Origin: an uncultured Ignavibacteriales bacterium
GTDB lineage: Bacteria > Bacteroidota > Ignavibacteria > Ignavibacteriales > Ignavibacteriaceae
Assembly (NCBI GenBank): GCA_937858935.1
Contig: CALLZX010000460.1
Location: forward strand, 1-44,190
Length of the DNA stretch: 44,190 nt
Direction of reading: 5' to 3'
Shown here one piece after another: positions 3,677-23,187 of this stretch. The notes beneath the pieces were generated by a model. The model saw only the letters and a list, made by a program, of their open reading frames with translations, ran no database searches and had not been told where the DNA came from. A program made the translations under genes and the position numbers. Every line of letters starts with the position of its first letter. Position 1 is the first letter of the stretch.

Positions 3677-5212
3677 TTATTTCATCAGTATCATTTTTTT
3701 TGTCTCAACAAAACCTTGTCCTGAGCCTGTCGAAGGATCACCTGCTTTAAGCTGATAGAAATATATTCCGGAACTTAATTGTGCATCGTTCATTGTAAAT
3801 TGTACATTGTATCTACCTGCAGATTTATATTCATCAACAAGTTTTGCGACTTCATTTCCAAGGACATCATAAACTTTTAATGTTTGCCAACTGGAGACGG
3901 AAGACTGCCAACTGATGTTAGTACTTGGATTAAATGGATTTGGATAATTCTGTTGAAGATAAAATTGATTTATCACCATATTTTCATTTTTAACCGAACT
4001 GGGAATACCATCTGTTTCAAAAGCCCCTAAATCCGGTGCTGCATCGTTATATGGTAAACCAACAGGAACACCAGCATCAATTAAATCACTGCCTGTGGCA
4101 AGATGCAAAAATTCTAAGTCTGGTAAACTTCCATCGGCGTTACGAGGTCCCCGAACTCCAAGTGTATCGATAGAAACAAAATCATCAATTGTAACATTAA
4201 AAGGACTCATCCAACTATTTGTTTGTTGAATTACAAAGCTTGCCAAAGAACCGTAACTATCTAATGCTAGATTATTAATTAAAATTGCTGTCTTGCTGCT
4301 ATCCAATGCAGTTGTAATTGAATAATTAGTTCCGTTCCTATAACCAGAGCAATTATAAAGAGTCATCGAACCTTTATTATTGTTCTGATCAAAACCTTTT
4401 ACCCTATTATCAAAAGCAACACAATTCTTTAAAGTAAAATTATGCATTAAATCTTTATTATCACTTCCGCCCATTTTAAAACCGTTACCATTTCCGGAAC
4501 TTGGACTTCCATCACTTAGATATCCATTAGCAAAACACCAGCAATTTTCCAGTACCGTATTCACATCGTTTGAAGGTCGAAGATATCCATCCCAGCCATC
4601 ATCTGAATTTTGCCAAGCTCTGCAGCCATAAAAATAGTTATTGGTTCCTACATTAAGCTTCGGCGCAAATCCATCGGCATTCCCCTGAGCTGGATCAGAA
4701 TTAAAGTATGAGTCACAATTAATGATCTGATTATTCGATGCACCACCGCTTAATTGTAATCCAGTATCGTGATTTTGATAAAAGGAACAGAATTCTATTA
4801 TATTGTTTGAACCACTTAAGTTCATACCATTATCACCAGCTCCTTTTATATCTAGTCCTTTAATGTGCCAATAACTGCCGCTTAATGTTATCGCACGATT
4901 AGTACTACTAATTGTCATTGAAGAAAAATCCAGAATAGGTTTTTCTTGATTGTATGAAAATAAATAGTATCTGCTGTTTACGTTCCCGCTTTTTGAAATA
5001 CTAATTTTATCAATATCTGATAGTAAATAAATTCCACCCTTAACAAAAATAGTATCACCCAGCTGAATCCTGTTAACAGCGGCTGGAATACTTTTTAATG
5101 GAAATTCCAAAGTGCCAGTGTTGTTATCATCACCATCAGGAGAAACAAATATCTGAGAATAACTCATGGAAAAAGTTATTATTAAATAAATTAAAATTTG
5201 CAGTTTCATCAT
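3677..5212 (-). CDS. PL9-family pectate lyase with T9SS C-terminal sorting domain
   Basis: A secreted parallel beta-helix protein of 511 residues counted from the MMKLQ start at 5212. An earlier ATG at 5227 lies inside the stem of an intercistronic hairpin (5223-5246) and would add MPSLN ahead of a good signal peptide, so it was not chosen. PL9 landmarks, numbered from MMKLQ, are GNADGFAPK (Asp179), NSDDGWDG (Asp204, Asp205, Asp208) and GNGNGFKMGG (Lys246). They correspond by pattern and spacing to the calcium-binding aspartates and catalytic lysine known for Pel9A. The last 85 or so residues are a type IX secretion tag with NYPNPFNPST and a terminal FVETKKMILMK. A repeat-like in-frame insertion (GDPSTGSGQG) interrupts that tag close to the end. 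The enzyme should cleave polygalacturonate by beta-elimination outside the cell. Confidence 0.9.
   Translation of the reverse strand: MMKLQILIYLIITFSMSYSQIFVSPDGDDNNTGTLEFPLKSIPAAVNRIQLGDTIFVKGGIYLLSDIDKISISKSGNVNSRYYLFSYNQEKPILDFSSMTISSTNRAITLSGSYWHIKGLDIKGAGDNGMNLSGSNNIIEFCSFYQNHDTGLQLSGGASNNQIINCDSYFNSDPAQGNADGFAPKLNVGTNNYFYGCRAWQNSDDGWDGYLRPSNDVNTVLENCWCFANGYLSDGSPSSGNGNGFKMGGSDNKDLMHNFTLKNCVAFDNRVKGFDQNNNKGSMTLYNCSGYRNGTNYSITTALDSSKTAILINNLALDSYGSLASFVIQQTNSWMSPFNVTIDDFVSIDTLGVRGPRNADGSLPDLEFLHLATGSDLIDAGVPVGLPYNDAAPDLGAFETDGIPSSVKNENMVINQFYLQQNYPNPFNPSTNISWQSSVSSWQTLKVYDVLGNEVAKLVDEYKSAGRYNVQFTMNDAQLSSGIYFYQLKAGDPSTGSGQGFVETKKMILMK
3714..3739. repeat. Repeat-like sequence inserted in frame in the PL9 T9SS tag
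   Basis: The plus strand contains the core CCTGAGCCTGTCGAAGG with weak inverted complementarity (TCCT at 3719-3722 against AGGA at 3734-3737). On the coding strand it reads DPSTGSGQG, in frame, between FYQLKAG and FVETKKM. The sister tag of the beta-helix gene (5260-6954) has FYKLESGKNVATQKM at the same place without this segment. I recall this core as a dispersed repeat in many environmental bacterial genomes. Only one copy was noticed in this window. Confidence 0.6.
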
Positions 5213-5222
5213 ATTCAAAGAA

Positions 5223-5246
5223 GGCATCCAGCAAAAACTGGATGCC
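5223..5246 (-). terminator. Intercistronic hairpin between the beta-helix and PL9 genes
   Basis: GGCATCCAG at 5223-5231 and CTGGATGCC at 5238-5246 form a perfect 9-bp stem with a 6-nt loop, 13 bp after the stop of the upstream gene (5260). On the minus strand it is followed by TTCTTT, a weak T-tract. It could act as a partial terminator or as an RNA-stabilising hairpin that sets different levels for the two genes. Confidence 0.6.
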
Positions 5247-5259
5247 CAGAAGATTTTTA

Positions 5260-6954
5260 TTATTTGAGCAACATCATTTTTTGTGTTGCTACATTTTTCC
5301 CAGATTCTAATTTATAGAAATAGATACCCGAAGAAAGATTGGAAGCGTTAAAATCAACAGTATGTCTGCCTGCATGAAGTTCCTGATTTAGAATGGTGAC
5401 AACTTTTTGTCCCAATAAATTATATACTGATACATTTGTCAACCCTGCTTCAGTTAAATTAAATGTAATTCTAGTGGATGGATTAAATGGATTAGGATAA
5501 TTCTGTTCAAGTGAAAATGATTGAGGGATATATCCTTCTTCAGTTTCAACATCAGTAATCCATGTCAGCCATTCAGCTTTTTTAGTTGGGAACCAATTTA
5601 AATCACCAACCGGAAAACCACCTTGTGAACCTGTGTATGCAGCAACAGATGTTGGATAAGAACAGTTTAGTGTGTCACGATAATATCGATATCCTTTTCT
5701 GTCCATATCATCTGTAGCTCTGTTCCAGAGTGATGAAGGAGTATTTTTGGTTTTGTTACCACCGCTTGGGCTCCAATACCAACGAATCATATTAACCATT
5801 ACTTTAGGTATGTTTGCTAACAAAATTGACTCCTTAGTAAAAGCTGTTAGCGAATCCGCACCAATTCTTGAATTAATATGCCAGGATAACGGTGAACCTT
5901 CAGTAACGTTATACTGATTAAAGAATCCCTGACCTGTATCAGAAATAGAATAGAAATTGTTAGAAATAAACCATTGAGTAGTATCGTTTGGTGCTGTAAA
6001 AATCCATGACATTCTATTATTTCCGTTTGGATATTTTTCACCTGTGTTAGCCCATTCAGCAGTTCTTGTAGCATCTGTTGAATCTTCACCACCTGCAAAT
6101 CCATCTATAATTAAATTATTTGTGATATAGAATTTTTCACCAACATTTCCTAATGATAAAAGACCATGAAAGGAAAACCCATTTACAAAGGAATTATGAT
6201 CGATTCTGCCATACTTTATTCCGCCAGTGCCCGCAAGTGGGTTAGCAAAATTGTAATGTCTTATAACACGATCCTGGAAGTTTACAAAAGTATTATTCAC
6301 AATAATTAAAGAATCACAGGATGCTTCTCTCAAGTCGATTCCTTTGCCTGCTCCTAAATTTGAAGTACTTAGAGCACCCATATTTGCGAAAATACAATTT
6401 GTTATTTCAACCTTTGTAGTAGCGCTACCTGTTCTTACATGCTGACCGTTAATATTTGTAAGTATACAACTATCAATTATGATATATGATCCTTCACCAT
6501 TTGTATTAATCAATCCACCTTGTACGTTATTAAAGTTAGAATCTACAGGTTCAAAGTATCCAGAGACAATAATATTTTTCATCTCAAGGTTACCACCACC
6601 TAATTGGAATAAATTTCCTGGAGGTCTATGTGGATTTGCACCTGTTCCTTGGGGATATTGGAAAATTATTGGCTTAGTTGTATTTCCAGCGACATTTTTC
6701 ATTTTAATTCTTAATGTCTTACCAGAAGGTACATTAAAAATCTCAGTATTAAGATACAACCCTCCTGGTTGCAGTAAATAAACACGATCAGGTAATAAGC
6801 CACTTGTTGCCGTTGTGTCTGCACGGATCTGTTCCATTAGAAATGTTCCAGGTCCGGTATATGGAGCTAATTCTAAATAGCTCTGAGCAAATGCAGAAAT
6901 TTGCAGCAGCATAGCAAGAAAAAGAATAATGCCACCGTATTTTTTTGCAATCAT
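5260..6954 (-). CDS. Secreted right-handed beta-helix protein with T9SS sorting domain, family unknown
   Basis: A 564-residue protein with an N-terminal signal peptide (IILFLAMLLQISAFAQ) and a clear SD (AAGGAG) before the ATG. Residues about 70-330 show short repeating strands rich in Asn, Ile and Val (IIIDSCILTNINGQHV, VEITNCIFANMGAL, LIIVNNTFVNFQDRVIRHYN), typical of pectate-lyase-like parallel beta-helices. The C-terminal 85 residues are a type IX secretion tag (SFSLEQNYPNPFNPST to KMMLLK). I cannot match it to a numbered polysaccharide lyase family. It lies between the receptor gene and the PL9 gene in the same direction, so a pectin-cleaving or pectin-binding role is likely but inferred. 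A candidate basic active-site residue is the Arg in DRVIRHYN. Confidence 0.8.
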   Translation of the reverse strand: MIAKKYGGIILFLAMLLQISAFAQSYLELAPYTGPGTFLMEQIRADTTATSGLLPDRVYLLQPGGLYLNTEIFNVPSGKTLRIKMKNVAGNTTKPIIFQYPQGTGANPHRPPGNLFQLGGGNLEMKNIIVSGYFEPVDSNFNNVQGGLINTNGEGSYIIIDSCILTNINGQHVRTGSATTKVEITNCIFANMGALSTSNLGAGKGIDLREASCDSLIIVNNTFVNFQDRVIRHYNFANPLAGTGGIKYGRIDHNSFVNGFSFHGLLSLGNVGEKFYITNNLIIDGFAGGEDSTDATRTAEWANTGEKYPNGNNRMSWIFTAPNDTTQWFISNNFYSISDTGQGFFNQYNVTEGSPLSWHINSRIGADSLTAFTKESILLANIPKVMVNMIRWYWSPSGGNKTKNTPSSLWNRATDDMDRKGYRYYRDTLNCSYPTSVAAYTGSQGGFPVGDLNWFPTKKAEWLTWITDVETEEGYIPQSFSLEQNYPNPFNPSTRITFNLTEAGLTNVSVYNLLGQKVVTILNQELHAGRHTVDFNASNLSSGIYFYKLESGKNVATQKMMLLK

Positions 6955-12769: not shown

Positions 12770-12859
<90 letters not shown>

Positions 12860-12964: not shown

Positions 12965-13053
12965 GGAAAGGTGGCAGAGCGGCTGAATGCGGCGGTCTCG
13001 AAAACCGTTATATCGGGAAACTGATATCGAGGGTTCAAATCCCTCCCTTTCCG
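12965..13053 (+). tRNA. tRNA-Ser (CGA anticodon)
   Basis: Acceptor GGAAAGG (12965-12971) pairs with CCTTTCC (13046-13052) followed by discriminator G. The anticodon loop CTCGAAA gives CGA, which reads UCG serine codons. A long variable arm and the GGTTCAAATCC T-arm are present. CCA is not encoded (CTC follows). It is divergent from the tRNA-Ser(GGA) gene, with 105 bp between them that must contain both promoters. Confidence 0.96.
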
Positions 13054-22383: not shown

Positions 22384-23187
22384 TTAATTACCTGAACTTA
22401 TCTTATTCAAAGAAACTATTTCATCACGAGCTACTTCAGCAAAATCTTCTCCACTACTCTTATATATGATACCACGGCTAATATTTACTAAATAATTTTT
22501 ACGCTTATTCTCACTAAATGTTTTACTCACATCTTCCAGACTTCCACCTTGTGCACCAACGCCAGGTAAAAGAATTGATAGATTATCAAAATTGCTAATA
22601 TTTGCTTTTAGTTCTTCAAGTTTTGTTGCACCAAAAACAATTCCACAATTATGATTTGTGTTCCATTCACTAACGCTCTGTAAAATGTTTTGATATAAAA
22701 ATCTCCCATCCTTTAATTCTAACTTTTCAAAATCAATTGCACCTGGATTTGATGTTAAAACCAATACAAAATTCATTTTATCAGTAAAATCTAGAAAAGG
22801 CTGTAAAGAATCTTTACCCATGTATGGATGCAATGTTATTGCATCAAACCTAAAATGATCATAAACAGATTTTGCATACATTTCGGAAGTATTCCCGATA
22901 TCACCACGTTTAGCATCCGCAATGGATAATATATCCTGTGGAATAAGTTCTACGGTTTTCTCAAGCTCAGTTATACCTTTAGCACCAGCTCGTTCATAAA
23001 ATGCAAAATTAATTTTATAAGCAGCAGCATAATTTTTAGTAGCGTTAATTATTGATTTATTGAACTTGAAAACTCCATCAGGGTCTTTTCTTAGATAAGA
23101 AGGAATCATATTTATATCTGTATCCAATCCTACACAGATAAACTTTCCCTCATTATTTTTATTAAGAATTTTTTCTTGTGATTTCAT
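22384..23187 (-). CDS. pyrF: Orotidine 5'-phosphate decarboxylase (subfamily 2)
   Basis: A 267-residue protein with the catalytic DAKRGDIGNT motif at 91-100 (Asp91, Lys93, Asp96) and FVLVLTSNPGA, ILLPGVGAQGG and VNISRGIIY segments of the type 2 PyrF group. It decarboxylates orotidine monophosphate to UMP, the last step of de novo pyrimidine synthesis. It starts 8 bp after the rodA stop and so is probably the last gene of the long mre-rod transcript. Length is usual for the subfamily. Confidence 0.95.
   Translation of the reverse strand: MKSQEKILNKNNEGKFICVGLDTDINMIPSYLRKDPDGVFKFNKSIINATKNYAAAYKINFAFYERAGAKGITELEKTVELIPQDILSIADAKRGDIGNTSEMYAKSVYDHFRFDAITLHPYMGKDSLQPFLDFTDKMNFVLVLTSNPGAIDFEKLELKDGRFLYQNILQSVSEWNTNHNCGIVFGATKLEELKANISNFDNLSILLPGVGAQGGSLEDVSKTFSENKRKNYLVNISRGIIYKSSGEDFAEVARDEIVSLNKISSGN

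Follow-up and report, generated by a model that had tools for sequence, protein, structure and literature searches.

A REP-like palindrome recurs in many lineages of T9SS C-terminal sorting domains (tags) as a clean 24-nt in-frame insertion, at a fixed position and lacking the TGA of the dispersed element. One such copy lies in the tag of a PL9-like protein encoded in the window, the 44,190-nt stretch of DNA from an uncultured Ignavibacteriales bacterium analysed here. The account that we favour, and hold to be somewhat probable, is that REP insertions are tolerated in dispensable loops of the tag and that the stop-free form at the last turn has spread mainly from tag to tag. The features of the window that bear on this are as follows.

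3677–5227, minus strand: PL9-like (Pel9A-type beta-helix) protein with a C-terminal T9SS type A sorting domain (ORF, 516 aa; profile matches)
3680–3952, minus strand: T9SS type A sorting domain, QNYPNPF ... KKMILMK (TIGR04183 and PF18962; seven-strand model of 3680–3994)
3716–3739, minus strand: 24-nt in-frame insert GATCCTTCGACAGGCTCAGGACAA, coding DPSTGSGQ at the predicted β6–β7 turn (reading frame; empty-site paralogues of other tags; model)
3721–3735, plus strand: 15-nt REP-like core CTGAGCCTGTCGAAG (12 exact genome copies; GTCAxx / x'x'TGAC flanks in most dispersed copies)
5260–6954, minus strand: neighbouring T9SS protein whose tag, used for comparison, is without the insert (ORF; TIGR04183/PF18962 profiles; tag comparison)

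The PL9-like protein matches PF22842 at 72.9 bits (cut-off 25.2), as well as PF13229 and PF18962, and its sorting domain scores above both curated cut-offs (TIGR04183, 30.2 against 23 bits; PF18962, 36.8 against 27 bits). Both Por_Secre_tail profile matches end at residue 497, the first residue of the insert, and the C-terminus reads LKAG-DPSTGSGQ-GFVETKKMILMK. The 17-mer CCTGAGCCTGTCGAAGG lies at 3720–3736 on the plus strand, with its minus strand coding PSTGSG inside the ORF at 3677–5227, and is the single match in the window at three or fewer mismatches, where 0.03 would be expected. A preliminary description of this DNA had proposed a repeat-like, in-frame insert in this tag that is missing from the neighbouring tag at 5260–6954. 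The insert stands, whereas the interval given for it (3714–3739) does not, since the inserted segment is two bases shorter, 24 nt at 3716–3739, in a register ambiguous by about one codon. The window copy has not kept the REP arms, its single-strand fold is ordinary (z = −1.38), and Rfam gave no match at the element at gathering score. Elsewhere in the same tag, the part coding ISWQSSVSSWQT contains a direct repeat, TGCCAACTG, at 3885–3893 and 3906–3914 (21 nt apart), and QSPVSSWQT-like segments, comparable with this ISWQSSVSSWQT region, recur in other tags. The window also holds two tRNA genes (Rfam), at 12773–12859 (minus) and 12965–13053 (plus).

The core CTGAGCYTGTCGAAG forms the middle of a REP-like palindrome, GTCAxx-core-x'x'TGAC, in which the inner bases compensate each other. 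The window's own genome (G000), an 84.8% complete MAG with 472 contigs totalling 3.46 Mb, contains two exact copies of the 17-mer and 12 of the 15-mer CTGAGCNTGTCGAAG, in which one base is free, against none for the reversed-pattern control. Over G000 and 40 relatives, the exact 15-mer occurs 190 times, in 21 of the 41 genomes including G000, so that the preliminary description was right to regard the core as a dispersed repeat. All exact copies were inspected in G000 (12), G002 (52) and G004 (22), and most lie outside recognisable genes as judged from open frames, several being in long stop-to-stop frames before the presumed start; two G002 copies (L298, L299) are ambiguous by inspection in their placement relative to genes. 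Last-turn tag copies make up 1 of 12, 3 of 52 and 2 of 22, respectively, and two further G004 copies occupy β2–β3 tag turns. In G002, 18 of the 52 copies are arranged in inverted pairs, 28–58 nt apart. In G000, G002 and G004 the element thus agrees with the definition of a REP (20–40 nt, many copies, mostly extragenic); G006 differs, in that all five of its exact copies are in tags.

Arm pairing differs between the two settings. In the fetched loci, 71 of the 97 distinct copies that lie outside T9SS frames pair at 5–6 of 6 arm positions, while last-turn copies pair at 2–4 of 6. A test for perfect stems picks out 0 of 37 last-turn inserts of the first family; with the ordinary fold of the window copy, this indicates a hairpin that is imperfect and has eroded in tags.

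Recurrence in tags was assessed across 164 genomes of the order, with pattern searches that required the exact core in one orientation near KKM. The core followed by N{6,30} and AARAARATG gave 25 matches in 14 genomes, with a gap of exactly 20 in 20 of them and of 23 in none. A gap of 23 is the one expected of an intact element. The remaining five comprise three matches in G072 (gap 17), which are also tags, and two that are not tags. At G072 loci L085, L095 and L098, variant or tandem forms (TSPSTGSGTSPSTGSGT, TSTGSVTGASTGSGT and TSTGSVAG) lie near the last turn and are three bases nearer to KKM. A search with CTTCGACARGCTCAGGACA found 30 matches, spread over 15 genomes; T9SS tags account for 25 (21 intact, two broken and two at contig ends), and the other five lie elsewhere. 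In the 21 intact tags the core centre is 17 codons before the end. Chance was rejected as an explanation on the reversed-pattern controls and the fixed gap.

Of the 25 matches in named genomes, 24, from 22 of the 23 stretches, fall in tag-like C-termini; the exception is from Marinobacter. By title, 20 of the 22 tag-like stretches are of Ignavibacteria type, one is a Deltaproteobacteria MAG and one is from Bacteroidetes. Ten of the insert-bearing proteins were scanned, and all ten match Por_Secre_tail, eight of them over the cut-off. Their Pfam passengers are FG-GAP/ASPIC, peptidase S41, beta-helix/NosD and Big_7, in one protein each; the others have no clear Pfam passenger family.

Pooled over G000, G002, G004 and G006, the last 30 codons of T9SS genes hold 11 of 91 exact copies, against 0.63 expected (P = 5 × 10⁻¹¹), an expectation that assumes 290 tags per genome, the G006 candidate count, which was applied to the other three genomes (150 of the 290 G006 candidates were scored, all over the cut-off). 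The bias towards these codons that the preliminary description raised is therefore found in the pooled set, and singly in G006 (P = 1 × 10⁻¹¹), G002 (0.004) and G004 (0.012); it does not hold for G000 alone (1 of 12 copies, P = 0.09). G006 consists of one contig of 3.86 Mb, and because its five exact copies are all in tags it has no exact dispersed donor. The first-type insert occurs there in 5 of 162 distinct tags, four of the five having been added from pattern matches. Decayed forms of the insert also persist, at L047, L100, L102, L112 and, in G000, L008 (contig C63, near 22733–22749), where DPSASSGQ occupies the same turn of another T9SS tag.

Paralogous tags within one genome differ by precisely this segment, as expected if it was inserted. 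In G006 the difference is a clean 24 nt between each of L123, L143 and L147 and their paralogue L256, and again between L149 and L201; at L120 and L112, adjoining paralogues with and without the segment are 78–86% identical outside the gap. The pair at L121 is less clean (72% identity, 21-nt difference). Near-identical inserts, or their cores, sit in tags whose other codons have diverged. An ancestral origin, in which the segment is native to the tag and was lost from most copies, would accommodate its occurrence in the tags of several genera within the order and of named Ignavibacteria genomes. This is highly improbable in view of the dispersed copies with paired arms outside recognisable genes and of the near-identical core in otherwise diverged tags, and it was rejected on the dispersed copies and the empty-site paralogues. 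Conservation across PL9 orthologues is likewise lacking, as only L047, among the readable orthologue tags, has a related, diverged insert.

A tree built without the turn from 239 tags, of which 45 carry an insert, calls for at least 27 changes of state; at least 25 are needed with branches below SH-aLRT 80 collapsed and at least 11 with those below 95 collapsed. Though the tags are short and resolution of the tree is weak, these at least 11–27 changes require many separate gains or losses. Shuffled labels gave means of 41.8 (full), 39.4 (80) and 23.9 (95) changes. The observed values are lower, so the inserts cluster more than by chance, as duplication and sampling would produce.

To place the insert in the fold, we modelled the segment encoded at 3680–3994 (23 sequences), obtaining seven strands with a mean pLDDT of 82.1 and a pTM of 0.74. 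In this model the insert falls in turn 85–94, between strands 76–84 and 95–103, the predicted β6–β7 turn. Foldseek matched the model weakly to CTD chains of the T9SS translocon (8gl8_D, E = 0.008; 8gl6_D, E = 0.026), with several non-T9SS matches ranking above them and none reaching 0.001, and a PDB sequence search returned no T9SS CTD.

Extra segments of at least four residues are confined to a few places in the tag. Among 249 sampled tags, 31 have one in the β2–β3 loop, 42 in β5–β6 and 51 in β6–β7, with others placed in strands β3 (6) and β6 (3), and none in the β3–β4 and β4–β5 loops; the loop-length reference lacks one residue at the last turn, and the pooled set (249–253 tags) is enriched for last-turn inserts because such tags had been fetched. 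G006 tags alone (162, mainly from the tag model) show 13, 21 and 10 in the same three loops, with 2 and 3 in strands. An inverted repeat (p < 0.05) was detected in 24 of 69 distinct loops with other kinds of insert, not all of them independent because they come partly from related genes, compared with 7 of the 207 control windows taken from those tags. The other palindromes, and intact first-family copies, are located in β2–β3 or β5–β6 loops. The types GTCATTGCGA, GTCATTCCGG, GTAGGGGCG and GAGACGTTGC are presumably common REP-like repeats elsewhere. Eight G006 tags (L156, L159, L160, L166, L177, L214, L237 and L239) have a common 8-residue extra segment in β5–β6, mostly LPxRSGSAL, without a clear palindrome.

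In Porphyromonas gingivalis, according to the accessible part of PMC11285876, the L-β3-β4 loop and the C-terminus are essential, and an 11-residue replacement of L-β5-β6 in RgpB was exported normally. The loops that accept palindromes here include the one that is dispensable in P. gingivalis, whose essential loop is the one in which none is accepted. Ignavibacterial tags thus provide a natural insertion scan of a secretion signal, a test of which of its parts can change.

Read in the last-turn frame, the complete element would give TCA Gx'x' TGA. TGAC is kept in none of 32 last-turn copies, in 4 of 4 β2–β3 copies and in 76 of 97 others, where distinct copies in the fetched loci were classified by reading frame alone and the 32 comprise 30 whose frames run to a KKM-like end, together with L087 and L135, judged by eye. 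Because TGA in this frame would end the protein before KKM, its absence is partly forced; the informative result is that the last turn shows no intact copy in the other, open frames and no tag truncated by one. The intact β2–β3 copies (L310, L314, L137 and L306, in three genomes) are read in the frame LRQAQ, and show that the dispersed form does insert into tags directly. At L306 (G024) an inverted REP-like pair is read in frame in the β2–β3 turn, its partner as LSLSK, and L137 (G146) is one tag with copies in both the β2–β3 and the last turn.

A second, different palindrome is also found at the last turn. Upstream of AARAARATG, CTGAAAYAARTTCAG was matched 12 times in 6 of the 164 genomes, with a gap of 20 and a tag-like context in 12 of 12. 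These inserts mostly code GPE(I/T)(N/S)SGQ and are all followed by GACA. Outside tags, four of the five copies in the fetched loci read x'ATGAC after the core, so that three bases are again missing in tags. This second palindrome, the absent TGA, the exact recurrence on different passengers and the use of other loops all go beyond what the preliminary description had claimed.

These data allow two routes into the tag to be weighed. Dispersed REPs could have inserted repeatedly and independently, filtered for frame and fold, with the turn being merely a well-tolerated site in a numerous domain. About five palindrome types in tag loops would fit such a history, as would the inner-pair variants TC/GA and CC/GG both found in tags, the 11 or more changes of state that remain at 95 support, and the intact TGAC copies, read in another frame, in the β2–β3 turn of four tags of three genomes, one of them beside its inverted partner. 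We nevertheless regard it as rather unlikely: at the last turn, all observed copies of both families share one frame and lack TGA, even though the other two frames of the intact first-family element are open, and G006 has no exact dispersed donor. Spread from tag to tag is favoured by these same features, namely the absence of exact dispersed copies from G006, the single frame and the common lack of TGA.

Alternatively, the insert itself may have been selected, either because a DPSTGSGQ or GPEINSGQ turn alters secretion, cleavage or anchoring, or because a hairpin in the DNA or RNA has an effect close to the gene's 3' end. Two different palindromes with the same frame and SGQ ending, and near-identical inserts in otherwise diverged tags, could be taken in this sense. 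Most tags, however, lack the insert (5 of 162 in G006 carry the first type), close paralogues differ in its presence, decayed forms persist and the arms are eroded, which makes selection improbable. The peptide is probably a neutral, flexible passenger, and secretion would be retained despite it, a tolerance judged from the intact reading frames.

Taken together, the preferred reading would run as follows. The palindrome is dispersed, mostly between genes, in the window bacterium and many relatives. Insertions into tags would survive where the fold tolerates extra residues, in the β2–β3, β5–β6 and β6–β7 loops, and would be lost from the β3–β4 loop and the C-terminal motif, both needed by the translocon. 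At the last turn only a version without an in-frame TGA is seen, and the window segment would be one such 24-nt, stop-free derivative in the β6–β7 turn. This version may then have spread by duplication, transfer and recombination among the many homologous tags of each genome, a mainly tag-to-tag route that would not need fresh insertion of a dispersed copy each time. More tentatively, a REP-like lineage may have become adapted to coding DNA, as a stop-free 24-nt cassette that moves among Ignavibacteria T9SS tags by recombination, uses the tag family as its niche and survives in genomes, such as G006, that no longer have exact dispersed copies. It also becomes testable whether REPs transpose on their own account or are carried along by homologous domains. 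There is also a caution for annotation, in that sorting-domain profile matches stop early at such inserts.

REPs mobilised by RAYT proteins carry a GTAG foot and a flanking RAYT gene; the element described here has no GTAG foot. Y1-type transposase genes are present in 37 of the 41 genomes, with no correlation between copy number and Y1 gene count (Spearman 0.19, p = 0.22) and no Y1 match in the incomplete G000. At six loci examined, Y1 ORFs lie 0.3–4.9 kb from the nearest core. Closely similar Y1-type ORFs (193 and 189 aa; L294, L321) occur in G002 and G004 with core copies some 1–1.2 kb away, on both sides in the case of G002. Compared with REPIN/RAYT systems, as set out in the available part of PMC3116915, the inverted pairs of short palindromes and the widespread Y1 genes are alike, whereas the lack of a copy-number correlation and of a Y1 match in G000 sets our element apart.

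The CGTC/TGTC-tagged REPs are alike in several respects. The accessible portion of Di Nocera et al. 2013 (PMC3733652) describes them as short palindromes with an unpaired CGTC foot (TGTC being a common variant), an 8–9 bp stem and a 4–5 nt loop, often in inverted pairs and mostly intergenic, as here; no transposase has been assigned to them, and Chlorobi and Bacteroidetes are among the five phyla that carry them. Set against this description, many of our dispersed copies have GTC at the foot, but paired with GAC and on an interrupted stem. The same portion reports copies inside ORFs, equates RPE-4 and RPE-6 with CGTC repeats, notes a single instance, in recB of two Xanthomonas, in which distinct REPs occupy roughly one position, and makes no mention of T9SS tags. 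Our searches of the open-access literature found no paper on the core strings and none on palindromic or repeat insertion in T9SS C-terminal domains; for REPs of Bacteroidetes in connection with secretion, PMC3733652 alone was pertinent, judged by title.

Intragenic REPs and RPEs are thus already known (PMC3733652, PMC10969869, as far as their available parts go), and it is the concentration at fixed loops of T9SS tags that appears to be new within the open-access literature. Rickettsia palindromic elements resemble the present case, by the description in the available part of PMC10969869, in placing palindromes in frame in many unrelated genes, but they are of about 150 bp and occupy unrelated metabolic genes, whereas ours are of 24–27 nt in fixed loops of one domain. 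The host domain itself agrees with the T9SS type A CTD, as described in the accessible part of PMC11285876, in its seven-strand sandwich, its conserved C-terminal lysine and its loops, variable except for β3–β4, and differs in that many of the ignavibacterial tags sampled here carry palindromes in those loops.
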